From NCBI GenBank assembly GCA_019217005.1, contig JAHBNG010000159.1, positions 1-29,362 of the forward strand: a DNA stretch of 29,362 nt. Reading direction: 5' to 3'. This DNA comes from Chloroflexi bacterium TSY (GTDB lineage Bacteria; Chloroflexota; Anaerolineae; Caldilineales; Caldilineaceae). The position numbers were made by a program, and so were the translations under genes. This document shows positions 1-29,362 of this stretch, piece after piece. Below the pieces are notes generated by a model. It ran no database searches, had not been told where the DNA came from, and worked only from the letters and a program-made list of their open reading frames with translations. Every line of letters starts with the position of its first letter. Position 1 is the first letter of the stretch.

Positions 1-23
1 GTCCGCCTAAAATGAACCACCCC
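1..23. mobile_element. MITE family 1, terminal fragment cut by window edge
   Basis: These bases are the exact reverse complement of the first 23 bases of the complete 155-bp element at 23127-23281, ending in the terminal motif TGAACCACCCC. The rest of the copy lies outside the window. It abuts the upstream region of the thiamine transporter operon. The target duplication cannot be checked because the other end is not visible. Confidence 0.8.
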
Positions 24-12837: not shown

Positions 12838-12975
12838 GATTGACAGAAACAACCTATTTCATATCTGAAAATCGCCCAAATCTAACGCAAAAACTAGATA
12901 TCGACCGGCAAATTTGTATTTATGTCAACTGTTTAGCCAGAATTCTCTCTCAAAACCTGAAATTTGGATCTACTG
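12838..12975. mobile_element. MITE family 2, truncated copy
   Basis: About 135 bp are almost identical (one indel seen) to the reverse complement of one side of the complete 215-bp element at 23820-24034. It ends with the terminal repeat AAATTTGGATCTACTG at 12975. The other ~80 bp are missing, so the copy lost its other end by deletion. It abuts the VOC gene and provides that gene's stop codon. Confidence 0.8.
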
Positions 12976-13275
12976 AGTCTGGTATGCCTCTGGCTCAATC
13001 TCAAATGCCAAGTGATTCAGACTCGATACGCCGACATCCAATCCACGAAAGCGTTTTTGAGCTGGCGGGTGGCGGTGAGGATCAATCAGCGCAAAGAGTT
13101 GTGGATGGCCGTTGCGCCCCAAGGGAGAATCTAGCTCGGCAATGGTTAGAAAAATGATGGTAGGTTCTTCGGTTGGATACTGGCTGTGTAGCCTAAAGCC
13201 TAATACCGTTTCGTAAAATTCGCGCGATTGCTCAATATCGTCGACATTAATGACAATTTCGGCGGGGTGGTTCAT
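12970..13275 (-). pseudogene. VOC/glyoxalase family protein, fragment between two MITEs
   Basis: The 101-residue frame begins MNHPAEIVINVDDIEQSREF, a VOC metalloenzyme/glyoxalase-bleomycin resistance N-terminus, and continues with YETVLGFRLHSQYP and a middle strand before SSLNHLAFEIEP. VOC proteins usually run about 120-130 residues, so the last strand and helix are missing. The start codon and MNHP lie inside the terminal repeat of MITE family 1 (ATGAACCACCCC), and the stop TAG lies inside the terminal repeat of MITE family 2. The gene is therefore a captured fragment. It could still be translated, but no native ribosome binding site remains visible. Confidence 0.7.
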
Positions 13276-13418
13276 TTTAGCTGGATAGATAGGTTTACAC
13301 TTTTAGAAACAGAAAGAACGTTTATATTCTCTGATTTCGCCGGTTCTCAGAGAGAAAACGGTCTCATATAGATTTTTGTCTATATATCAAAAGTGTAAAC
13401 CTAATTTTGAACCACCCC
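13264..13418. mobile_element. MITE family 1, complete copy (155 bp)
   Basis: The element starts GGGGTGGTTCA and ends TGAACCACCCC, with inner inverted blocks containing TAGGTTTACAC and GTGTAAACCTA. It is the same length as the copy at 23127-23281 and shares ATATAGATTTTTGTCTAT with it. No target duplication flanks it: the left flank belongs to a VOC gene and the right flank to a BTAD regulator. This suggests that recombination or deletion between copies joined two loci here. It contains no gene. Confidence 0.85.
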
Positions 13419-16400
13419 ACAGTTTAGATTGCCAACGTCTTCTTGCTGAAGGACAAGCCGAAAAGGATATGAGCAAACTTCGACAGGCGGTTGCGCTCTA
13501 CCAGGGCGAATTCTTGGTGGGATTTACAGTGAAGGAGGCGTTTGTCTTTGAGGAATGTGTTCACACCGAGCGCGAACACATTCGCTACCAAGTGATGGAA
13601 GGGCTAGAGCTACTCGTTGCTGATGCGATTCGTTGGGAAGATTGGACGAGCGGTGTAGACTATGCCCATCGCCTCTTGACCTTGGAACCATGGCGTGAAA
13701 GCACCCATCGTCAACTGATGATTCTTCACAATCGAGCAGGGCGGCGAGAGGCGGCAGTTGAACAGTTTGAACGCTGTAAGAAAATCTTGGCAGAAGAGCT
13801 GGCAGTTGAGCCATCAGCGGAAACAGTTGCTTTCTTTGAACGACTTCAAGCCACTCGCGTCGCACCACCGCACAATCTCCCGCCTCAACCCAACGCTTTC
13901 TTGGGACGTGTTGAGGAGTTGGAGCAGATTCATGAGAACCTCAATGATGTCAATTGTCGACTCCTCACCGTTGCCGGTTCTGGCGGCATCGGTAAGACAC
14001 GGCTCGCAATTGAAGCTGGTCGTCGCTATACCGATTCAACCAGATCGCTTTCCGGAACCATCTTTTCTGACGGCGTCTATTTTGTGCCCTTTGCCTCCAT
14101 TCAGGGAGGATATGAGTTGGACGCCGATGCCTGCATTGCCGCCATTGCCGAAGCAGTCGGTACTTCGTTTCATGGACAGACGGACTTACAAGATCATCTA
14201 AACCGCTTTCTCCAACCCAAATCGCTTTTGTTGATTTGCGACAATATCGAACATCTACTCTCTAGTGCCAGCGGTTCCAGCGCCAGCCATACGCCAATCC
14301 TTCGGACTCTGCAATCCATCCTGCGCGAGGCTCCAGACGTTAAATTACTTGTCACCTCACGGCAGCGGCTCAATCTCCAAGTCGAAAGGGTGTTAACAGT
14401 CGAAGGATTGACCTACCCAGAAACAGCGAGGCATGACCTAAAGAAAGATGCTCTTGAAGCTTACTCTGCCGTTGCGCTTTTTTTACGACGGGTGGAGCAG
14501 GCACAACCAGATTATGTACTCTCAGAGACGAGCGTTCTCGCGGTTGCTAAACTCTGTCGCTTGCTTGAAGGAATGCCTTTGGGATTGGAACTGGCCGCCC
14601 ATTGGGTGCGCTACCTCTCGATCGATGACATTGTGGAAGAGCTGGAAAGGGGATTGGATATCCTCACCACGTCGACACACAACATTCCGGCTCGCCACCG
14701 CAGCATGAGAGCTGTCTTTGACTATTCTTGGCAACGACTCTCGTCGAAGGAACAGAGCACGCTTAGCAAGCTCTCCGTTTTCCAAGGAGGATTTACCCCT
14801 GAGACCGCCACAGATATCACTGAGGCATCAATGGGAACACTGGTTGCCCTCTCTGATCAATCGCTTATTCGGCGTGTAGAGGGTGACCGTTACGAGATGC
14901 ATGAGCTGTTGCGCCAATTTGCGGCAGAAAAGCTGACAAATATGGGAGGCGAAAGAGAGGCTCAAACGCAGCACGGTCAATATTACCTGGCTCTTTTAGC
15001 TGAAAATGAGGAGGGGTTGTTTGGCGAAAAGCCGAAGCAAGTGCTGCAGATGTTGAGTCGCGAGATTGGAAATATCCGCAAAGCATGGCAGTGGGCGACC
15101 GCTAATCACCGCTGGTCCTCCTTGATCAATGGCATGGATGGGCTTGCAAAATTCTATGAAATCTCTGGCTTCTTCCAAGAAGGCGAACATCTCTTCGCCC
15201 AAACTGCGGATTCTCTTAACTCCAACCAACCTGAGCTCAATGCAATACGCTGTCGGCTGCAGATTGGACAAGCAAGTATGCTTTTTGCACAAGGTTTGCT
15301 GGGGCAAGCTGTTGAAGTTGCAAGAGAGGCAGTCGATCTAACCAACTCTTTGGTGTCATCACAAAAGAACAGGACAACGTCTGATTGGGCGCAGTCAAGT
15401 CATCTAGAATTGGAGGGTCGAGCTCGTTTTGAGTTGGGGCGTTCCTTACACAAACAGGGAGAACAATCTGCTGCTCCCACCCAATTCGAACGCGCATTGA
15501 CCCTGGCGCGTGCTGTTCAGAATCGTCATTTGGAGGCTGACATATTACGCCACTGGTGCTGGAATAGCTACGATCAAGGGGACTTTAACCGAGCGATCGA
15601 GTTACAGTCGGCTGCGGAAGAGCTTTTCCGCCAATTGGGTGATCGGCTAGGCATCGGCATCACGCAGTTTGACAGTGCCTTCATTGCTTTCTTTAAAGGG
15701 GATATCCGCACTGCTGGTAGAAAATTCGAAGCCGCATTGGCAGATTTTCGTCAAGTTGGCGACCGCCGCTTTGAGTCCTTCAGCGTTTTCAATTTGGGAA
15801 TCTGTGCCAGGGGTGGAGGAAAGTATACAAAGAGTCTCACCCTGCTACATGAGGCAATTTCTTTGGCGCAGGCCAATGGAGATCAGGATTCTGAAATCAA
15901 TGGGCTTGTGACTGCTGGAAAAATTTTGAGCGAAATCGGCGATTATGATGCCGCAGCAGACTATTTACAGCAAGCGTCGGAGATGAATCGTGTTCTGGGA
16001 GGGCGCGTCAATCTTGCTCGTTGGTGTAGAGCAACGGCCTATTTGTACCACTGCCAAGACAGACAGATGGACGCACTGAGACGGCTCGAAGAGGGTCTGG
16101 GTATTGTCCGCGAGATGGATAATTATGAGTTGGAGATCGAGATGCTTCCCCTGCTTGGTCGCGTCCATTCTGCGCTCTCCAATCATAAAGCAGCGCAAGA
16201 AATATATGAACAGGCCGCCAAGATGCTCGAGCAATCCGAAGACCACCGAGTGATTGAGCCGCTGGCTGGTCTTGCACAACTGCACCAGAATGCCGGTGAG
16301 ACCGAGCAAGCAATGGAAAAAGTCAACACGGTTCTAGAGACAATTGCGCGAGACGGTCTGATTGGTGTAACGGAGCCATTTCTGGTCTATCTCATTTGCC

Positions 16401-16603
16401 ATCAGGTATTGGAGGCGAATGGAGATTCTCGTGCAACAGAAGTATTGTTCACGGGACATCAGCTTCTACAAAACTCAGCTGGCTTTATTGAAGATGAAGG
16501 CCAGCGTCGATCGTTTTTTGAAGATGTTACAACGAATCGCGAGCTTGATCGGTTGGTTCATTTGAAGTTGGAAGATTCAAAACAGCCAATTGCATTTAGA
16601 TAA
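13376..16603 (+). CDS. SARP-like BTAD / NB-ARC ATPase / TPR regulator, N-terminus replaced by a MITE
   Basis: This is a large cytoplasmic signal-transducing ATPase of the AfsR/SARP type. Residues about 15-160 are a BTAD domain (VALYQGEFLVGF, then PWRESTHRQLMILHNRAG, EELAVEPSAETVAFF). Residues about 165-470 are an NB-ARC-like STAND ATPase with Walker A GSGGIGKTRL (about 200-209) and Walker B SLLLICDNIEHLL, then a winged helix region. About 560-1040 are TPR-like helices. The DNA-binding winged helix and the first BTAD helix that normally precede are missing, because the MITE ends at 13418. The open frame starts at a TTG inside the MITE, so the first 14 residues are MITE-derived; ATG 13470 is an alternative. 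Without its DNA-binding domain it is unlikely to act as a classical activator. Confidence 0.8.
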   Translation: MSIYQKCKPNFEPPHSLDCQRLLAEGQAEKDMSKLRQAVALYQGEFLVGFTVKEAFVFEECVHTEREHIRYQVMEGLELLVADAIRWEDWTSGVDYAHRLLTLEPWRESTHRQLMILHNRAGRREAAVEQFERCKKILAEELAVEPSAETVAFFERLQATRVAPPHNLPPQPNAFLGRVEELEQIHENLNDVNCRLLTVAGSGGIGKTRLAIEAGRRYTDSTRSLSGTIFSDGVYFVPFASIQGGYELDADACIAAIAEAVGTSFHGQTDLQDHLNRFLQPKSLLLICDNIEHLLSSASGSSASHTPILRTLQSILREAPDVKLLVTSRQRLNLQVERVLTVEGLTYPETARHDLKKDALEAYSAVALFLRRVEQAQPDYVLSETSVLAVAKLCRLLEGMPLGLELAAHWVRYLSIDDIVEELERGLDILTTSTHNIPARHRSMRAVFDYSWQRLSSKEQSTLSKLSVFQGGFTPETATDITEASMGTLVALSDQSLIRRVEGDRYEMHELLRQFAAEKLTNMGGEREAQTQHGQYYLALLAENEEGLFGEKPKQVLQMLSREIGNIRKAWQWATANHRWSSLINGMDGLAKFYEISGFFQEGEHLFAQTADSLNSNQPELNAIRCRLQIGQASMLFAQGLLGQAVEVAREAVDLTNSLVSSQKNRTTSDWAQSSHLELEGRARFELGRSLHKQGEQSAAPTQFERALTLARAVQNRHLEADILRHWCWNSYDQGDFNRAIELQSAAEELFRQLGDRLGIGITQFDSAFIAFFKGDIRTAGRKFEAALADFRQVGDRRFESFSVFNLGICARGGGKYTKSLTLLHEAISLAQANGDQDSEINGLVTAGKILSEIGDYDAAADYLQQASEMNRVLGGRVNLARWCRATAYLYHCQDRQMDALRRLEEGLGIVREMDNYELEIEMLPLLGRVHSALSNHKAAQEIYEQAAKMLEQSEDHRVIEPLAGLAQLHQNAGETEQAMEKVNTVLETIARDGLIGVTEPFLVYLICHQVLEANGDSRATEVLFTGHQLLQNSAGFIEDEGQRRSFFEDVTTNRELDRLVHLKLEDSKQPIAFR

Positions 16604-20948: not shown

Positions 20949-22604
20949 GTGATCACAATTCTATTTCTGGCGGCAAATCCAGCCGATAGAACCCAACTAA
21001 GATTAAGTGAAGAAATCCGAGTGATTGAACAAGCCCTATCTCGGGCAGAATTCCGGGATAGCTTTGATATCAAGCAACACTGGGAGGTGCGCGTCTCCGA
21101 GATACAGGAATTGCTGTTGCGTCATCAGCCGGACATTGTTCACTTCTCTGGTCACTCAGATGAATCTAGCAGAATTATCCTGCATGATGATGCGCGCAAA
21201 AGCCAGCCAATATCTAAGGATGCCATTGGAACGCTTTTCGCGGTACTACAAGACAATATCAAATGTATTGTATTAAATACATGTTACTCTGAGGAACAGG
21301 CTCAAATCATTGCACAACATATTGATTGCGTGATTGGAATTTCAGCGAAGATTAACGATAGTTCGGCTATCAAATTTGCTTCATCGTTTTACCAGGCCCT
21401 TGGTTATGGAAGGGCGATTCAAACCGCTTTCGAATTAGGTCGATTGCAAATCAAATTGGAGAATCTTGGCGAAGAGGATCGCCCTCGCTTACTTGCCAAG
21501 GATATTGACGCCTTCAAAACTGAATTCACCAATATTAAGCGGGAAAGTCAAAAAGGAAGTAGCCCGCAAACACCGTCTCTAATGCACTCCGACCACACAT
21601 TGGAACCGCCAACGGGCAACTTAGCACCTGATTCTGCATTATACATTGAGCGCAAGGCTGATGCTGATTGTCTGAACTATTTTAGTCGCGATCATGCAGT
21701 AACAGTCTATATCCAGGCTCCCAGTCAAATGGGAAGGCGTTCGCTCATGCAGCGTACTTTGTACCAGATTGAGCAAAAGCAAGTGTTCATCAATTTTGAA
21801 GAGTTTTTGGAGGAGCAACTGCAGGACAGAGAGCAGTTTTTCTTGGGTCTATGCCAGATGATAAGCGACAATTTAGAGATTCCCGATCACATCGACGAAT
21901 ACTGGAATCCGCGGCGAACTGTCTTGATAAATTGCAAGAATTATATGGCTAAGTATATTATTCCGACCATCAATCAGCGGTTTGTACTCGCCATGGACGA
22001 GGTTGATAGAGTCTTTGGAGCACCGTTCCAAAATGATTTTTTTGGTATGTTGCGAACTTGGCATAACTTACGTTCCCACAAGGATCAAAATTTCTCTCAA
22101 ATGAGTCTCTTTCTCGGCAGCTCAACCGAACCAGAGAAATTTATTGACGATCACGATCGGTCGCCGTTCAATGTTGCCCTCCCGATTTTACTAGAAGATT
22201 TCAGTCGAGACGAGATTGACCAACTTCATCATCGACATGGATCACCGGTCAATCAGCCGGATCTGGATGTGCTAATCAGGTTATTGGGTGGCCACCCGTT
22301 TTTGATTCGGCTGGCCTTCTATCTGTTAGCCACATCGACAATCAATTTTGACCAGTTAATGGGTACAGCAACGTCTGACGATGGCCCATTTGGCAGCCAT
22401 CTGCGACGGTACTGGCACATCTTGTTGGATAATCGAGAACTGCAATCAGCTCTGCGCAAGATATGGCTGGAGAAGACACATCCAGAAGACAGATTGTTTT
22501 ACCGTCTCAAGGGTCTAGGTCTCATAAAAAAAGTGGGGAATCAGATCGTCCTACGCAACCACCTCTACGAACTCTACTTTACGGAACGTCTCAATCATGC
22601 CTGA
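20949..22604 (+). CDS. CHAT-domain (caspase-like) protease fused to an AAA-like domain
   Basis: The 551-residue protein starts at GTG 20949 (AAGGA upstream). Residues about 1-165 form a CHAT domain, a clan CD cysteine protease fold related to caspases and separase: catalytic His69 in VHFSGHS and Cys112 in LNTCYS. Residues about 215-540 are an AAA-like domain (PF14516 type): ALYIERKADADCL, a degenerate Walker A APSQMGRRSL (about 257-266) in which GRRS replaces GKSS, Walker B VLAMDEVDRVF (about 347-357), and a FNVALPILLEDFS segment before a winged helix. Loss of the Walker A Lys suggests that it binds but does not hydrolyse NTP. It lies 28 nt before the TIR-STAND gene, whose N-terminus has the same AAA-like domain with an intact Walker A, so the two probably assemble. 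The likely role is a regulated protease effector in defence or cell death. Confidence 0.85.
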   Translation: MITILFLAANPADRTQLRLSEEIRVIEQALSRAEFRDSFDIKQHWEVRVSEIQELLLRHQPDIVHFSGHSDESSRIILHDDARKSQPISKDAIGTLFAVLQDNIKCIVLNTCYSEEQAQIIAQHIDCVIGISAKINDSSAIKFASSFYQALGYGRAIQTAFELGRLQIKLENLGEEDRPRLLAKDIDAFKTEFTNIKRESQKGSSPQTPSLMHSDHTLEPPTGNLAPDSALYIERKADADCLNYFSRDHAVTVYIQAPSQMGRRSLMQRTLYQIEQKQVFINFEEFLEEQLQDREQFFLGLCQMISDNLEIPDHIDEYWNPRRTVLINCKNYMAKYIIPTINQRFVLAMDEVDRVFGAPFQNDFFGMLRTWHNLRSHKDQNFSQMSLFLGSSTEPEKFIDDHDRSPFNVALPILLEDFSRDEIDQLHHRHGSPVNQPDLDVLIRLLGGHPFLIRLAFYLLATSTINFDQLMGTATSDDGPFGSHLRRYWHILLDNRELQSALRKIWLEKTHPEDRLFYRLKGLGLIKKVGNQIVLRNHLYELYFTERLNHA

Positions 22605-23126
22605 GCATACTACTTCTGAATAAACTTCTTCCATGCAAACCACTTCTGAACAAACAGTGCCCAAGCAACCTGTCAGACTCTCGGTTGGTGGTGATGTCCA
22701 GGCATCCAATGGAACCTATATAGAAAGAGTGGCAGACAAGCAGCTTTATGACGCCTGCCTCGCCCACGATTTCTCGTACGTACTGGCTTGTCGCCAGATC
22801 GGAAAGTCAAGTCTAAAAAACGCGGTTGCCGAACGACTCATTGCAGAGGGTGTTAGCGTATCTCGAATTGACCTAAATGTCATCGGCAAAGATGTATCAG
22901 GGGCTGAGGAGTGGTACTACAGTCTTCTGGACCAAATAGCCTATAGCTTGCATCTTGAGAGTAACCTGGATGAATGGTGGGAACGTCAACCCCAACAGCT
23001 CAGTTTGGTGCAACGATTCATGCGCTTTTTTGACGAGATTGTCCTGGCAACCATCCACGACCCCATTGTCATCTTCATTGATGAAATCGACCTGACGTTG
23101 GGATTGTCGTTTACAGGCGATTTTTT

Positions 23127-23281
23127 GGGGTGGTTCATTTTAGGCGGACAATTAGGTTTACATTTTTGCAAAGAGAAAAGATGTTTATATTTTCTAATTT
23201 GAGCCATGCTCAGGCAGAAAATGACCTCATATAGATTTTTGTCTATGTATCAAAAGTGTAAACCTAATTCTGAACCACCCC
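23127..23281. mobile_element. MITE family 1, complete copy with target duplication
   Basis: The 155-bp element has the ends GGGGTGGTTCA and TGAACCACCCC and carries no gene. It is flanked by GATTTTTT at 23119-23126 and 23282-23289, an 8-bp target duplication. Deleting the element and one target copy restores the AAA-like reading frame (GDFFAVIRT). The transposase family that moved it cannot be named; an 8-bp AT-rich target is seen in several IS families. Confidence 0.92.
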
Positions 23282-23819
23282 GATTTTTTTGCTGTAATTC
23301 GAACGATACACAATGATCGTGCGCAAAATCCTGACTATCAGCGTCTGACATTTGTCTTGTTGGGAGTTGCCACGCCAGATGAATTGATCAGCGATCGACA
23401 GCGTACGCCCTTTAACATCGGTCATGCGATCGATATGCGTGACTTTTCCTACGATGAGTGCAAGCCACTGCAATCGGCAATCGAGGCACGACATCCGATA
23501 AAGGCGGAATCCTATTTTCAGCAGATCTATGAATGGGCAAACGGACATCCCTACCTGACTCAGAGACTCTGCAAAGCCACAATAGAGACTCCGCAAACCG
23601 ATGACCCACATCTTGTCAAAAAGCTCGTCGACGAAATTTTTCTTGGCGAAAACGAGAATCTTGAACCAAATCTCTACTTCGTACAAACTCGAATTCTAAG
23701 TGATCCTCTTGCGCCACGAATGCTTCGACTATATAGCGCTCTCTTACAATACGGAACCATACCTGATGATCCTGAGTCACTTACAATCAATAGGCTAAAG
23801 CTATACGGGTTAATAGTCT

Positions 23820-24034
23820 CAGTAGATCCAAATTTCAGGTTTTGAGAGAGAATTCTGGCTAAACAGTTGACATAAATACAAATTTGCCGGTCGATATCTA
23901 GTTTTTGCGTTAGATTTGGGCGATTTTCAGATATGAAATAGGTTGTTTTCTGTAACCGAAATCTGAATAAATGACTCCAAAATCCCTGCAATCTCGACTG
24001 AAAATAGCCAAAAACGCCAAATTTGGATCTACTG
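23820..24034. mobile_element. MITE family 2, complete copy with target duplication
   Basis: The 215-bp element has perfect 16-bp terminal inverted repeats, CAGTAGATCCAAATTT and its complement, and no gene. AGTCT at 23815-23819 and 24035-24039 is a 5-bp target duplication. Deleting the element and one target copy restores the frame GLIVSQNGHLRVRNTIYEHF, joining the AAA-like winged helix to the TIR domain. A truncated near-identical copy lies at 12838-12975. Confidence 0.9.
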
Positions 24035-24902
24035 AGTCTCGCAGAATGGACATCTTCGTGTTCGTAACACGATATACGAGCACTTTTTTGATAGTCACTG
24101 GATTACTAAATTTGAAGAATTAGAAGCTTCATTTGACTTGTTCGTTTCTTATGATAGAAAGGATCAAGCCTGGGTAGAAGGATATTTACTAGACGCATTT
24201 GAACAGTCCAATTTCAAAATATATACTACGCAATCTTCTCATATACAGCAACCAAATTTTGCGGATCTTGAGCAAGCCCTTCTCCGGAGCCATCGTACGT
24301 TATTGATTCTGACCCCTGTGTTCCTTAGGGATCAATATGCTCTCCTTGTTGAGGTGCTGACCCATTTGTTTGGTGCGTCAAATAACACATGGCCTATCAT
24401 ACCTCTTATGCTTAAGCATATTGAACTACCTCCTCAACTCCAATCGGCAGATTTCATAGATGCGACTGAGCCCGATAATTGGTCGCTAATTATAGATGAA
24501 CTGTATGCGGAGTTTGACTTAGATCAGAAGTTGTTAAGTCAAACTCCTATTTCCCCTTGCCCCTATCCCGGTATGAGTTCATTTAGTGAGACAAACAGCC
24601 CTCACTTTTGCGGGCGCAGCAACGAGATTAACTACCTACAACAGAGTTTGCGTCTCCATCCAATTATTGCCGTGATTGGACCATCTGGCAGCGGTAAATC
24701 CTCGCTGGTCATGGCTGGTCTCATTCCGGCACTACGCAACGATAAACACCTGTTTACGGCTGGCGAATGGAATATCAAAGTAATACGACCAGGGGCTTTC
24801 CAGTGGATACACTCATTGAAACGATAGAGCCTGTGGTTGACCTCTCAGAGTGGCGTCCCACAATCAGAGGCCAAGGGCCTGTAAGGCGGCTTCTGTTGGT
24901 TA

Positions 24903-27900
24903 TTGATCAATTTGAGGAGATTTTTTACCTTTGCCGATGAGGAGCAGGCGAGTGAGTTTCAACAGAATCTCCTGAAGCTTATTGAGGCACCCGATATCTA
25001 CGTGGTGATTACCATGCGGTCCGACTTTTATGTCTGTCTCATGAATAGCCCACTTTGGCAGCAGATTTCGGAGCATCGGCTAGAACTCTTGCCATTAAAG
25101 GGGGAAGGTCTGCGCGAAGCTATTGTTAACCCTGCAACCAGTCAAGGAGTCAAACTCGAAGGCGCCTTAGTCGAGCAATTATTAGCGGATGCAGCGGACG
25201 AACCAGGTGTGCTTCCCTTTATTCAAGAAACCATGGTGCTACTTTGGGGAAAGCTGGAACGGCGCTATCTGCCTGCAGAGGCTTACTCAAGTCTCGGTGA
25301 TGGGACCCACAGTACTGTGAACGGACTATACGCAGCTATGACGCTTCATGCCGATCATACGCTGGCCAGTTTGTCCTCTGAACAGCGTGCTGTTGCGCAG
25401 CGCATTCTGCTACGTCTCATCCAATTTGGCGAAGGACGAGCCGACACTCACCGTCAGCAATCGGTGACAAGCCTGCGCTCCTACCAGGGGAAACAAGCTC
25501 TCTTCGAGCAAACGTTGGCAACACTGACCAATGGACGGTTGCTGACTTTGAGCGCCGAATTCTATTCAGGTCAAGTAAGCGACCCTTTGGTTGACATCGC
25601 TCATGGATCGCTGATCAATGGCTGGCCGACTTTGCGTACCTGGATTGATGAACGCAGAAGTGCCGAGTTGACTCGACGCCGCTTAGAAGAGAAGGCCACG
25701 GAATGGGTAAACCTAAACCAAGCAGGCGGACTGTTGGACGATCTTGAACTAGTCGAAGCAGAACGGTGGCTGAGCGGACCTGATGCAGAAGAATTGGGGG
25801 CCAGCCAGGATCTTGTCGATCTGGTTACAGAAAGTCGCGATACATTGAATGCCATCATTGCGGAGAAAAGGCGCAGCAGTCGTATACGCCTGACCTTGGT
25901 CACTGCTGTTGTCCTGCTGGTGATTGGAGCGCTTGGTGGTGGGGTCTGGTTCCAGAGTCAGATTGCCAACCAAGAGCGTCAGGCTGCAGAAGAAGCAGCT
26001 CGACTTCAGCAAGAGGCAGAAGAAGCCCGGGATCAAGCAAAAATCAGTGAAGCCAATGCACTTGAAGCAATGGCATCAGCTGAGCGTCAAAGCAGCATCA
26101 ATCGGGCCCAAACCATTCGGATCCAGTCTCTGCTTGAGGTGGATCGTAACGCCGAGTGTAGCCTAGCCCTGGCTCTGGAAGCCCATGACCTGGCTAAATC
26201 TATCTCTGACTTTCCTCATTTCCCCTTCCAAGACAGCGTACGCAATGCCTTACAAGCTACCCACACTGAGCAAGTTCTGCTAGCTCATACATCCTTGCAG
26301 GCCGTAGCATGGAGCCACGATGGCCGCACAATAGCCGCTGGTGGACAAGAAGGTGGTACCCAACTCTGGGAAGTAACGGATGAAGAGCTTCAAAAGACCG
26401 AACGGATCTCCACACCCAACTCGGTTTTCTCTCTAGCTTTCAGCCCCGACCATAAGCTGCTAGCCATCGGAAGTATCGAAATCGTTCTGTGGGACCAAAT
26501 AACGAAAACGGCGACTGGCACGTTAACAGACCACAGTCAGTTGTCGAGAGTGTTGGCCTGGCACCCAACTGGGCGCTGGCTTGCGTCTGGTTCTGACGAC
26601 GGGACAATTGTCATTTGGGATACGAAAACACTTTTGGCCGTACAAAGGTTGACGGAACATCAACAAGACAGCGGTACCGACGACGTAATGGGTCTGACCT
26701 GGAGTCCAGACGGTTTCTGGCTGGCCTCAACCGGATGGGACAATCGAATTCGCCTTTGGAATGCGTCTGACTTAGAGAACGATACGCCCGATGACTCCCC
26801 CTTGACCTTGGAAGCTGCCAGGGACGTTAATGAACAGGGAAATCCCACGCGGCTTGCCTGGTCACCCAATGGCATGCAACTAGCGATCGGCTATGTATCT
26901 GGCATTATTCAGCTTTGGCCGATAGACGCAGAGTCAGGTTTTTCAGACGACCAACAACCATTGCAGAGTCTGCAGGCTCATACGGGCACGATTTGGGGAT
27001 TAGCTTGGAGTTCCGATGGATCCCTACTCGTTTCCTCTTCGACAGACCAGATCATTCGCATTTGGGATAGCCAATCCCTAACGCCACTATTTGCGCTGAG
27101 CGGCCACCTCGATGCCATAACAGGGGGCGTAGCTTGGAAACCTGACGACAGTTTTTTGGTCTCAGCGTCGGTTGATCAGACTGTGCGGGTGTGGCGGCTG
27201 GCACCTAGCGTCGTCGAATCTCACCAAACGGAGGGGTTTCTATTGGATGCCGAATGGAAACCAAACGAATATATATTGGCATTGCTTGACGCTACTCAGC
27301 GTGGTGGCTCTATACACTTATGGGATTTAGAAAGTAATAGTACATACATCATTTTTGACTCTCATTCAGCTTCTGCAGTGCGTCTTGCATGGTCACCTGA
27401 TGGAAAACAGATTGCCACAGCATCCGGCGATACCGAAGTACATATTTACGATGCACAAAGTGGTGAACTACTTCACCGCCTGACTGGTCACACAGGCCCT
27501 GTGTATGACGTTGCCTGGTCACCTGATGGCCGTCAGCTCGTTTCAGCAGGCTCGGGTGATTCAAGTGTTTTCCTCTGGGACGTAAATGACGAGAGTTCAG
27601 AACGTTTCTCCGGTAGCAGCCCTTTACAGAGTGTCACTTGGCACCCCCGCGAAACTCTGTTTGCGGTTGGAGCGAGTGATGGACTTATCAATCTATGGAA
27701 CGTACCAATCGGCCAGCGCTACGACTGGAGTGGTTATGGGCCAGCCGTTTCATCAGTTGCCTGGCACCCAGACGGACAATGGCTGGCCTCTGGCGGACAA
27801 GATGGACGGATTATTATCTGGGATACATCTGAGGATGACTTGACTACAGGTCACATCTGGAAAGATAAATTCGACCTGGGTGAACAGATCTGGGATCTAG

Positions 27901-28187
27901 CATGGCAGGGCAACCAGTTGGCTGCATCAGGTGTCAATGGCTCCGTCAAGGTGTGGGATGTGGTGACAGGTGAAAATGTAGCCAATTACACTGGTCATGA
28001 AGGGGCTGTACGAGCCGTCGACTGGAGCCACGATGGTCGCTATCTGGCCACTGTGGGCATGACTGACGGGACGGCGCTGGTTCACTATGCTTGGTTTGAG
28101 GAGGATCTGCTGCCGATTGCACGTCGTCAATTGGAGCGGGGGAGTACGGAGGCAGATCGGGTGCGCTGTTTGGCGGTGATTCAGTAG
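24903..28187 (+). CDS. Residual open frame: nSTAND C-terminal part, TM helix, WD40 propellers
   Basis: This is the longest uninterrupted piece of the broken gene (1094 codons from a TTG). Only residues from about TFADEEQ (24922) on are in the true frame; the first seven or so are read out of frame across the shift. It contains the arm of the STAND ATPase (VVITMRSDFY, then LPLKGEGLREAIVNPA), a membrane helix at about residues 326-349, an Ala/Glu/Gln-rich coiled coil at about 350-400, and 14 WD40 repeats, most ending in a WD/WN-type dipeptide. It lacks Walker A and the TIR domain, so if made it could sense but not signal. No ribosome binding site is visible at 24903. Confidence 0.6.
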   Translation: MINLRRFFTFADEEQASEFQQNLLKLIEAPDIYVVITMRSDFYVCLMNSPLWQQISEHRLELLPLKGEGLREAIVNPATSQGVKLEGALVEQLLADAADEPGVLPFIQETMVLLWGKLERRYLPAEAYSSLGDGTHSTVNGLYAAMTLHADHTLASLSSEQRAVAQRILLRLIQFGEGRADTHRQQSVTSLRSYQGKQALFEQTLATLTNGRLLTLSAEFYSGQVSDPLVDIAHGSLINGWPTLRTWIDERRSAELTRRRLEEKATEWVNLNQAGGLLDDLELVEAERWLSGPDAEELGASQDLVDLVTESRDTLNAIIAEKRRSSRIRLTLVTAVVLLVIGALGGGVWFQSQIANQERQAAEEAARLQQEAEEARDQAKISEANALEAMASAERQSSINRAQTIRIQSLLEVDRNAECSLALALEAHDLAKSISDFPHFPFQDSVRNALQATHTEQVLLAHTSLQAVAWSHDGRTIAAGGQEGGTQLWEVTDEELQKTERISTPNSVFSLAFSPDHKLLAIGSIEIVLWDQITKTATGTLTDHSQLSRVLAWHPTGRWLASGSDDGTIVIWDTKTLLAVQRLTEHQQDSGTDDVMGLTWSPDGFWLASTGWDNRIRLWNASDLENDTPDDSPLTLEAARDVNEQGNPTRLAWSPNGMQLAIGYVSGIIQLWPIDAESGFSDDQQPLQSLQAHTGTIWGLAWSSDGSLLVSSSTDQIIRIWDSQSLTPLFALSGHLDAITGGVAWKPDDSFLVSASVDQTVRVWRLAPSVVESHQTEGFLLDAEWKPNEYILALLDATQRGGSIHLWDLESNSTYIIFDSHSASAVRLAWSPDGKQIATASGDTEVHIYDAQSGELLHRLTGHTGPVYDVAWSPDGRQLVSAGSGDSSVFLWDVNDESSERFSGSSPLQSVTWHPRETLFAVGASDGLINLWNVPIGQRYDWSGYGPAVSSVAWHPDGQWLASGGQDGRIIIWDTSEDDLTTGHIWKDKFDLGEQIWDLAWQGNQLAASGVNGSVKVWDVVTGENVANYTGHEGAVRAVDWSHDGRYLATVGMTDGTALVHYAWFEEDLLPIARRQLERGSTEADRVRCLAVIQ

Positions 28188-28274: not shown

Positions 28275-29362
28275 TCACCGAATCACAAAAATCTCCTCCG
28301 TATCCATCACCATTGTCAGAATCTGTGGATCATCCTCGGTCACGAGAAATAGATCCTCGATGTGGTAGAGGAATCCCTGGGAATCTTTGACGGCAGGCTC
28401 GATATTGAGCACCATGCCGGGCTTGAGGGTCGTCTCTTCTTGGGCATGCAGGACGGGGAACTCGTGCAGCCCCACACCCAGGCTGTGGCCGATGGCCTGG
28501 CTGGTGCCGGATAAGCCACGCTTTTCCAGGGCCTCTTGACTCAGACGATAGACGTCACAGGCACGCACGCCGGGACGGGCCGACTCGATCATTTCGCGTT
28601 GTGCCTCACGCAGACGACTGTAGACGGATCGTTGCTCATCACTGGCCCTGCCGATGGCAGCGGTGCGGGCTACATCTGACTGGTAGCCAGTGAAATTGCC
28701 GCCCACGTCGGTACGCAAAATCTCGCCTGGCGTTAGTGCTTTGGGGCCAGGATAGGGATGATTGATGGCTGTGTTGGAACCGGCCGCCAGAACAAGCCAG
28801 CGCGAAACTGCACCTGCGCCAAAGACGCGCAGCGAGATCCGATCCGCCACCCCTTTCTCGGTATCTCCTGGCCTGGCTTCTAAAAAGGAATCCAGGATCA
28901 CCTGCTCTGTTTGGCGTGCAATATCGGTCAGAATCTCGATCTCTACGGGTGTTTTGATGGCCTTCGCTTCATCAAAGACGCGGTCGCAGCCAACCAAGGT
29001 TGCGTTTGGCAGAAGTGCAGCCAACTCTTCCACATAGCAGGCGGCCAGAAAGTGCTTTTCAAACCCAATGCGAGCGTTGGCCAGACCGCTCTCCTTCAGC
29101 AGGTCAGCCAGTGGCTGCATGGGCGTCTCCCGGAATTCCAAATAGGTGCGAATATCAGTGATCCAGGACTCCAACCGGATCTGGCGCTCCTCATTGTAAC
29201 AGGTAACAATGGCTGGTTCCCCTCCCCTGGGCAACACGGCCATGCTGAGCCGATCAGGAATGATCTTTTGGGAGAGATTCAGCGTATCGGCCAGGTAGAA
29301 GAAATTGTCGGGGGAGACAGCGATCAGCACGTCGAGATCCGCTGCATCCATGCCGCGCTGTA
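28275..29362 (-). CDS. M24 family metallopeptidase (Xaa-Pro dipeptidase-like), 5' end outside window
   Basis: The gene encodes a pita-bread-fold metallopeptidase that would cleave Xaa-Pro peptides or a related amide. From the window edge the frame reads QRGMDAADLDVLIAVSPDNF, a creatinase-type N-terminal domain, then the catalytic domain. Metal ligands seen are Asp in ILRTDVGGNF, Asp in GYQSDVARTA, His in AIGHSLGVGLHEF, Glu in LNIEPAV and Glu in YHIEDLFLV. The internal Met at 29351 is not the true start: the duplicate at 18580 shows 16 more residues upstream, which lie beyond the window. Its partner gene may be a PhyH oxygenase, as in the decayed copy. Confidence 0.88.
   Translation of the reverse strand, partial: QRGMDAADLDVLIAVSPDNFFYLADTLNLSQKIIPDRLSMAVLPRGGEPAIVTCYNEERQIRLESWITDIRTYLEFRETPMQPLADLLKESGLANARIGFEKHFLAACYVEELAALLPNATLVGCDRVFDEAKAIKTPVEIEILTDIARQTEQVILDSFLEARPGDTEKGVADRISLRVFGAGAVSRWLVLAAGSNTAINHPYPGPKALTPGEILRTDVGGNFTGYQSDVARTAAIGRASDEQRSVYSRLREAQREMIESARPGVRACDVYRLSQEALEKRGLSGTSQAIGHSLGVGLHEFPVLHAQEETTLKPGMVLNIEPAVKDSQGFLYHIEDLFLVTEDDPQILTMVMDTEEIFVIR
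29205..29362. repeat. Direct repeat copy B (with 18386-18543)
   Basis: It is the 5' part of the intact M24 gene, about 96% identical to the fragment at 18386-18543 and in the same orientation, and is cut by the window end. Together the copies flank 10.8 kb with the IS element and the CHAT/TIR-STAND pair. Confidence 0.9.

Follow-up and report, generated by a model that had tools for sequence, protein, structure and literature searches.

The window examined here, meaning the whole stretch of 29,362 nucleotides that was analysed (contig JAHBNG010000159.1 of Chloroflexi bacterium TSY, Caldilineaceae), carries at positions 20949-28187 of the forward strand two neighbouring genes, gene A and gene B, each with the AAA-like domain AAA_35 (PF14516). 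In gene A this domain is joined to a CHAT domain, and in gene B, which is broken, it stands with TIR, nSTAND1 and WD40 regions. The first-pass annotation of this DNA had described the two genes as a conflict system in which a CHAT protease is paired with an AAA-TIR-STAND-WD40 protein; it was right about the kind of system and wrong about the integrity of this copy and about depletion of nicotinamide adenine dinucleotide (NAD). We consider the locus, with a probability of about 0.6, to be what decay has left of a conserved conflict switch of two genes, which is built on two paralogous STAND-like AAA_35 NTPases and would work by the mechanism proposed below. The intact family, rather than the copy in the window, is the object of interest.

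Gene A (20949-22604, + strand) is an uninterrupted open reading frame (ORF) with a GTG start that encodes 551 amino acids, and its product combines a CHAT domain (residues ~1-185) with an A-clade AAA_35 STAND-like module (residues 221-545), the latter matched by Pfam at E 3.7e-84 and 282.8 bits against a cut-off of 27. The Pfam CHAT model matched weakly (21.8 bits, below its cut-off of 24). The PADLOC chat model matched gene A at E 2e-16, and the solved SAVED-CHAT protease 8tl0, the sole solved sequence relative at E <= 0.01, matched the CHAT region at E 1.1e-12 and was also the best fold match for its predicted structure. In the CHAT alignment, whose rows, like those of the Walker-A and TIR column counts given below, mix database proteins with proteins from the loci and include near-copies, two His columns (126/127 and 124/127) and one Cys column (127/127) were conserved and the window protein filled all three; which of these residues are catalytic is presumed from general knowledge of such proteases. 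The PADLOC model, the 8tl0 match and the filled columns support the CHAT assignment, with proteolysis as the predicted activity, so that the description of this gene as CHAT plus an AAA-like domain stands. Gene A scored 374.5 bits with a profile of A-type AAA_35 domains, in whose training set it was itself included, and 131.8 bits with a profile of the B type. Its Walker-A Lys is replaced by Arg. Among 200 aligned A rows, 197 carried Lys, two Arg and one Thr (P0108), and both Arg rows (P0001 and the window ORF) are one protein, namely the window's gene A.

Gene B follows on the same strand as four ORF pieces in changing frames (22633-23202, 23225-23845, 24036-24827 and 24885-28187). The first piece carries the start and the N-terminal half of a B-clade AAA_35, with a Walker A (GKSS in the translation), and runs into a first insert, where it stops; the second, at 23282-23845 of the ORF that opens at 23225, carries the second part of this AAA_35 and runs into a second insert, where it likewise stops. 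The end of AAA_35, a TIR of the nSTAND1-linked kind and the first part of nSTAND1 with its P-loop lie on the third piece, and the fourth holds the remaining nSTAND1, a hydrophobic segment that by eye resembles a membrane helix, and a WD40 region that, judged by length alone, accommodates two propellers. Frame changes at about 24.75-24.94 kb disrupt nSTAND1. Pfam detected AAA_35, TIR, nSTAND1 and WD40 downstream of gene A, whereas no NCBIfam model matched the window pieces. The two AAA_35 parts of gene B scored 51.6 and 46.7 bits with the Pfam model; with the B and A profiles, respectively, piece 1 scored 167.9 and 62.9 bits and piece 2 scored 181.6 and 57.6 bits. Since the regions in both genes exceed the cut-off of one Pfam family, the sharing of this domain, noted at first pass, is not a matter of chance. 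From its first residue, piece 3 aligned with residues 335-489 of gene B at a relative locus from Calditrichia (L077; 31% identity, E 3.5e-20), and because that stretch spans the AAA_35 end and the TIR, AAA_35 and TIR were most likely parts of one protein at the window locus. All the domains predicted for the second gene are therefore present; the reading of it as a single intact protein is rejected in view of the four pieces, the two inserts and the frame changes.

Both inserts interrupt the AAA_35 region of gene B. Insert 1 (23127-23281, 155 bp) has 11-bp perfect terminal inverted repeats, an 8-bp flanking direct repeat and an inner inverted repeat; a full-length second copy lies at 13264-13418 (82.6% identical), and an identical 23-bp end of the same family lies at window positions 1-23. 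Insert 2 (23820-24034, 215 bp) has 16-bp perfect terminal inverted repeats and a 5-bp flanking direct repeat, with a partial copy at 12843-12975 that is 99% identical over 134 bp, which suggests recent movement of this second family. The inserts look like miniature inverted-repeat transposable elements (MITEs) of the same genome rather than sequencing noise, the name being taken from their size, ends and copies. As side observations on the 155-bp family, its members (13264-13418, 23127-23281 and 1-23) have GGGGTGGTTCA ends, one copy overlaps the start of a BTAD-TPR ORF (13376-16603), and the contig opens with the end of a further copy. The Walker-A Arg is a second mark of decay, in gene A, which may have drifted freely after the loss of B. 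With gene B interrupted and the Walker-A Lys of gene A gone, the copy at this locus is probably non-functional and the locus is most likely a relic, so that the working system envisaged at first pass is probably not present here.

Loci of relatives were collected by scanning a profile of 18 CHAT-AAA_35 proteins over genome contigs and keeping the 80 top-ranking of 553 confirmed places; since the query was gene A only, the neighbours were unselected. An A-type domain was present in 74 of the 80 loci, and six had CHAT without an A-type domain. At 63 of the 80, a B-type gene lay no more than 2 kb downstream of A in the same orientation, giving the operon-like order, with a STAND module in each gene, that is seen in the window. 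Among these 63 pairs the stop-to-stop frame of B began at or before the end of the A frame in 29 and within 100 bp of it in 41. At six further loci B lay elsewhere (upstream of A in L023, L024, L054 and L059, divergent in L048, and fragmentary in L051), and at two the contig ended right after A. Both partners are open frames at, for example, L017, L039 and L060.

Genome scans placed this pairing in a wider frame. The B-type AAA_35 query recovered 5329 proteins at E <= 0.001 from 7996 scored candidates, other AAA_35 relatives included. PF14516 was found in 14 of 16 genomes chosen through the relative loci, in 17 of 59 cyanobacterial genomes and 5 of 201 Chloroflexota genomes (each count including a chosen genome), and in 25 of 150 genomes in the class of an Anaerolineae genome, eight of which had an A-type match of at least 180 bits; it was found in none of the 14 well-known control genomes in each scan. 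The Chloroflexota and Anaerolineae-class counts are lower bounds, as the first-look candidates of some genomes were not all scored. In these scans a domain was called A at 180 bits or more, and a few weak A domains were perhaps counted as B; the pairing counts leave out 17 of 42 Anaerolineae-class rows, which scored below 70 bits, and, for the cyanobacterial sample, every row of its chosen genome (G011). In the non-cyanobacterial genomes picked for holding loci, 12 of 15 A domains were followed on the same strand by a B domain no more than 200 bp downstream, as were 9 of 10 in the Anaerolineae-class sample (6 of 7 minus the chosen genome). Of 45 A domains in the cyanobacterial sample, 15 had a B at this distance and 30 had one no more than 5 kb away, whatever the arrangement; eight lacked a B on their contig and seven had one only farther than 5 kb away. 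In five cyanobacterial genomes picked through loci, the corresponding figures were 11 of 45, 27 of 45, 13 and 5. The adjacent A/B pair is a conserved two-gene unit and a candidate operon.

To which lineages the two domains belong was apparent from a tree of 144 AAA_35 domains (those of the loci and of the window's gene A), which split into two clades with a support of 99 on the best branch; this was a quick tree in which several long branches were flagged, and its details are unsure. One side of the branch held all 73 A domains together with one row labelled B by position (L018_B_10293), which belongs to a CHAT-AAA_35 protein that is extended at its C-terminus. Homologues of the two genes are thus often adjacent and fall into two clades of one family, one per gene, so that neither of the observations named at first pass as refuting the pair was made. 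The Walker-A Lys was present in 248 of 250 B rows, the other two having a gap. After near-identical A domains had been removed, 62 pairs were reduced to 42, and across these the pairwise distances of A and of B were correlated (Mantel r 0.84); the value was 0.84 for 33 cyanobacterial pairs and 0.81 for 22 pairs from Nostocales, and in each of the three sets none of 2000 permutations reached the observed r. Natural fusions of the two domains were also found: P0178, P0188 and P0203 are B-TIR-A proteins, P0192 is B-CHAT-TIR-A, and in three further frames from cyanobacterial genomes (G240 C98, G246 C30 and G224 C48) neighbouring A and B domains share one open-frame length, the order being B then A in all seven. 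Two more proteins (P0212 and P0215) score as fusions, but their A part looks incomplete and they were not used as evidence. The predicted fold of the AAA_35 module has nucleotide-binding, helical and winged-helix parts as in STAND and NLR proteins. Overall, the two paralogous clades, the co-varying distances and the fusions make hetero-assembly of A and B likely, in line with what the first-pass annotation had drawn from the shared domain.

Around this core, the attached domains vary. The 120 listed proteins of the A search comprised 49 CHAT-TIR-A, 22 CHAT-A (window included), four TIR-A and 45 with other N-termini, and seven of the latter, when scanned, carried EAD1, EAD7, EAD8, bDLD1, TCAD9, protein kinase or PNP_UDP domains. 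The B proteins examined carried WD40, TPR, FGE, CHASE2, CHAT, kinase or TIR-LRR-Roc-COR regions. Tandem B-type AAA_35 domains were seen in L062 (11076-15059), L071 (10997-14992), L055 (3346-8409) and P0170, and among the 120 listed proteins of the B search 52 were AAAB-AAAB and four more had the tandem plus WD40 or a third copy. In an Oscillochloris locus (L042, 1122-7155) A is CHAT-TIR-AAA_35 and B has a C-terminal CHAT, which puts a protease-type domain on both partners, and in the Calditrichia locus L077 (9152-15539) a PNP_UDP-AAA_35 protein (A) is followed by an AAA_35-TIR-LRR-Roc-COR protein (B), tying a Roc-COR protein to an AAA_35 pair. Two Myxococcota loci (L054 and L059) consist of three abutting ORFs, namely AAA_35-WD40 (B), TIR-AAA_35 (A) and an nSTAND1-WD40 gene. 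In L059 Pfam recognises CHAT in the N-terminal part of this last gene, and its counterpart in L054 resembles it in sequence. The TIR of these loci is not of the window's kind, since it sits on A; the recurrence of similar parts across genes in another division supports their being one functional set.

The A/B adjacency proposed at first pass was therefore recovered in relatives; the exact domain layout was not met again. By our own profiles, the full window layout of B (AAA_35-TIR-nSTAND1-WD40) occurred in none of the 80 loci, where L077 came nearest, and AAA_35 was found in none of the other 119 proteins among the listed matches to the window's nSTAND1 region (the best 120 of 687, one being the window's own, from a candidate set of proteins up to about 1.9 thousand amino acids). 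We thus do not regard this architecture as recurrent, and make no claim that it is absent in nature. The closest nSTAND1 regions among the matches listed (63-67% identical to the window) belong to single proteins of the form CHAT-(TIR-like)-nSTAND1-WD40, P0242-P0245, in which the TIR-like stretch was seen by eye and not by profile; P0245 is labelled Caldilineaceae. They share with the window the joint occurrence of CHAT and nSTAND1 and differ in being one gene in which AAA_35 was not found.

For the TIR, the first-pass annotation had supposed that one sensor could license NAD depletion. In the putative catalytic column, which we placed from general knowledge of TIR NADases with one column of slack, 98% of the 86 TIR rows located before an A domain had Glu, as against 0% of the 111 rows located before nSTAND1. 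The window TIR, one of these 111 rows, has Val in this column and Glu one column on, and it shares the WVEGYLLDA stretch of the nSTAND1-preceding kind. This nSTAND1-linked TIR subgroup (110 proteins and the window) has a conserved W-V-E-G-Y-L stretch and lacks Glu in the expected catalytic column. The closest solved sequences to the window TIR were TIRAP, TLR2 or TLR15-TLR2 constructs, all weak matches (from E 1.6e-5). Because of the contrast in the Glu column and these TIRAP and Toll-like receptor matches, NAD cleavage is plausible for the TIRs borne by A proteins and is not supported for the window TIR, for which a scaffold role is likelier than NADase activity; that this TIR depletes NAD was accordingly rejected.

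From the computed domains, pairing, clades, fusions, predicted fold class and breakage we infer how complex formation between A and B, the direction of signalling, the trigger and the fate of the cell might be linked. Protein A would consist of one or more N-terminal effector or signalling domains and a C-terminal A-clade AAA_35, and protein B of an N-terminal B-clade AAA_35 and a C-terminal repeat or sensor region. The C-terminal repeats of B would perceive a trigger and change its nucleotide state, upon which B would co-assemble with A through the AAA_35 modules. The A effectors, gathered in this way, would be switched on (CHAT proteolysis, a Glu-bearing TIR where present, a kinase or a phosphorylase), and the outcome could be death or dormancy of the cell, or a further signal. 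In the window variant, A would have carried CHAT and B would have gained an nSTAND1-WD40 sensor plus its TIR. A broader proposal, which we hold tentatively and at slightly less than even odds, is that AAA_35 A/B pairs are undescribed, widespread, obligate hetero-oligomeric STAND immune switches (in cyanobacteria, Chloroflexota, Myxococcota and others), a counterpart of sensor-helper NLRs with B as sensor and A as executor, with interchangeable sensors and effectors, and with one assembly firing both proteolysis and NAD cleavage in the case of CHAT-TIR-AAA_35.

Several observations weigh against the two-gene switch and were considered with the alternatives. B is missing from three of the 80 loci despite room after A (L019, L041 and L069), the pairing is looser in cyanobacteria, and the co-varying distances could also be explained by linked inheritance alone. 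The model of a natural fusion reached a predicted template modelling score of 0.47, too low to resolve how its domains are arranged. With such A genes without a nearby B, with B genes that have no A, and with AAA_35, TIR, CHAT and nSTAND1 all being widely shuffled, it might be argued that these are separate conflict genes that merely cluster, each acting alone, and that the shared AAA_35 reflects domain shuffling rather than assembly. This we find unlikely, since order is fixed, frames are close and each clade supplies one partner at 63 of 80 loci, and since the distances co-vary and natural B-A fusions exist. The reading that gene B is intact in the organism and that its breaks are assembly or sequencing errors is very improbable: the window is a single contig and the nSTAND1 frame changes could be errors, but the inserts end in perfect terminal inverted repeats, are flanked by direct repeats and have further copies in the window, and the Walker A of gene A is altered as well.

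It is also conceivable, if doubtful, that filamentous or aggregating bacteria use the pairs for programmed cell death, for differentiation or for signalling under stress, and not for defence against invaders. AAA_35 is commonest in cyanobacteria (17/59 genomes, as against 5/201 of Chloroflexota and 0/14 controls), and CHASE2 or FGE-type domains occur on some B proteins. The neighbour comparison gave no clear defence-island signal either: at E <= 1e-10, 87 PADLOC families were matched for 100 neighbour proteins (of 260, nearest first, from 22 chosen loci) and 60 for 100 controls (of 218, from 16 placed stretches in nine genomes, partly the same), and because these were counted by family and not by protein, the difference is no proof of a defence setting. 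On the other side, the swapping of effectors and the fusion to EAD, bDLD1 and the Pfam ternary-complex-associated domain fit conflict systems as set out in PMC7159879 and PMC8195603. A conflict switch of two paralogous AAA_35 partners is the reading that we carry forward.

Elsewhere in the window, a Pfam scan of the ten other ORFs matched nine to transport, enolase-superfamily, CobW, M24 or regulator families and left one without a match; none of the ten was a known defence gene by name. The M24 peptidase (28275-29351) had strong matches in 6 of the 150 Anaerolineae-class sample genomes, with top identities of 61-62% in three, which agrees with, but does not prove, an origin in Chloroflexota.

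Among openly licensed papers we found no publication on the AAA_35 pair and no mention of PF14516; the name AAA_35 appeared in a protein context in one paper, which touches on it in passing. The closest printed analogue found is the two-gene nSTAND2 system of Kaur et al. 2021 (eLife e70394, PMC8195603), which has one inactive partner and effectors that are mostly GT4 or HEPN. It shares with the AAA_35 pairs two adjacent STAND genes, a predicted hetero-multimer and variable effectors on one partner, a likeness judged from the description. The two differ in that one nSTAND2 STAND has eroded NTP-binding motifs, whereas the Walker-A Lys is kept in both AAA_35 clades (197/200 A and 248/250 B), and in that the AAA_35 pairs bear CHAT, TIR, kinases, a phosphorylase and EADs; when AAA_35 domains of one A and two B proteins were compared with Pfam, no nSTAND model appeared among the matches up to E 10. 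Kaur et al. 2020 (PMC7159879) and PMC10907252 describe conflict systems of this wider class. The ternary systems of PMC7159879 share an inactive STAND core in their iSTAND type, caspase-like, TIR or EAD N-termini and multicellular hosts; they are described as requiring MoxR and vWA partners, and neither was found among the ten other ORFs scanned in the window.

The solved SAVED-CHAT protease 8tl0 shares the CHAT domain with gene A; its CHAT is joined to SAVED and, by the entry title, it forms filaments, whereas gene A has a STAND-like module instead of SAVED. We take this protease to belong to type III CRISPR. Avs-type STAND defence proteins, eukaryotic NLRs and CED-4 resemble the AAA_35 module in predicted fold and in the logic of effector, NTPase and sensor. 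As a rule they are single receptors or homo-oligomers, and plants evolved paired NLRs with a division between sensor and executor. If A and B do work as a single switch, the CHAT-TIR-AAA_35 proteins (49 of the 120 listed in the A search) would let a single assembly combine proteolysis with NAD cleavage, and, the family being large, genes annotated merely as "AAA-like domain-containing protein" would acquire a role that can be tested. Unlike Avs proteins, NLRs and CED-4, the AAA_35 pair places sensor and effector on two paralogous NTPases, and if A and B form one switch, it would be a bacterial case in which sensor and executor are split between paralogous STAND NTPases while effectors and sensors are exchanged around a fixed core.

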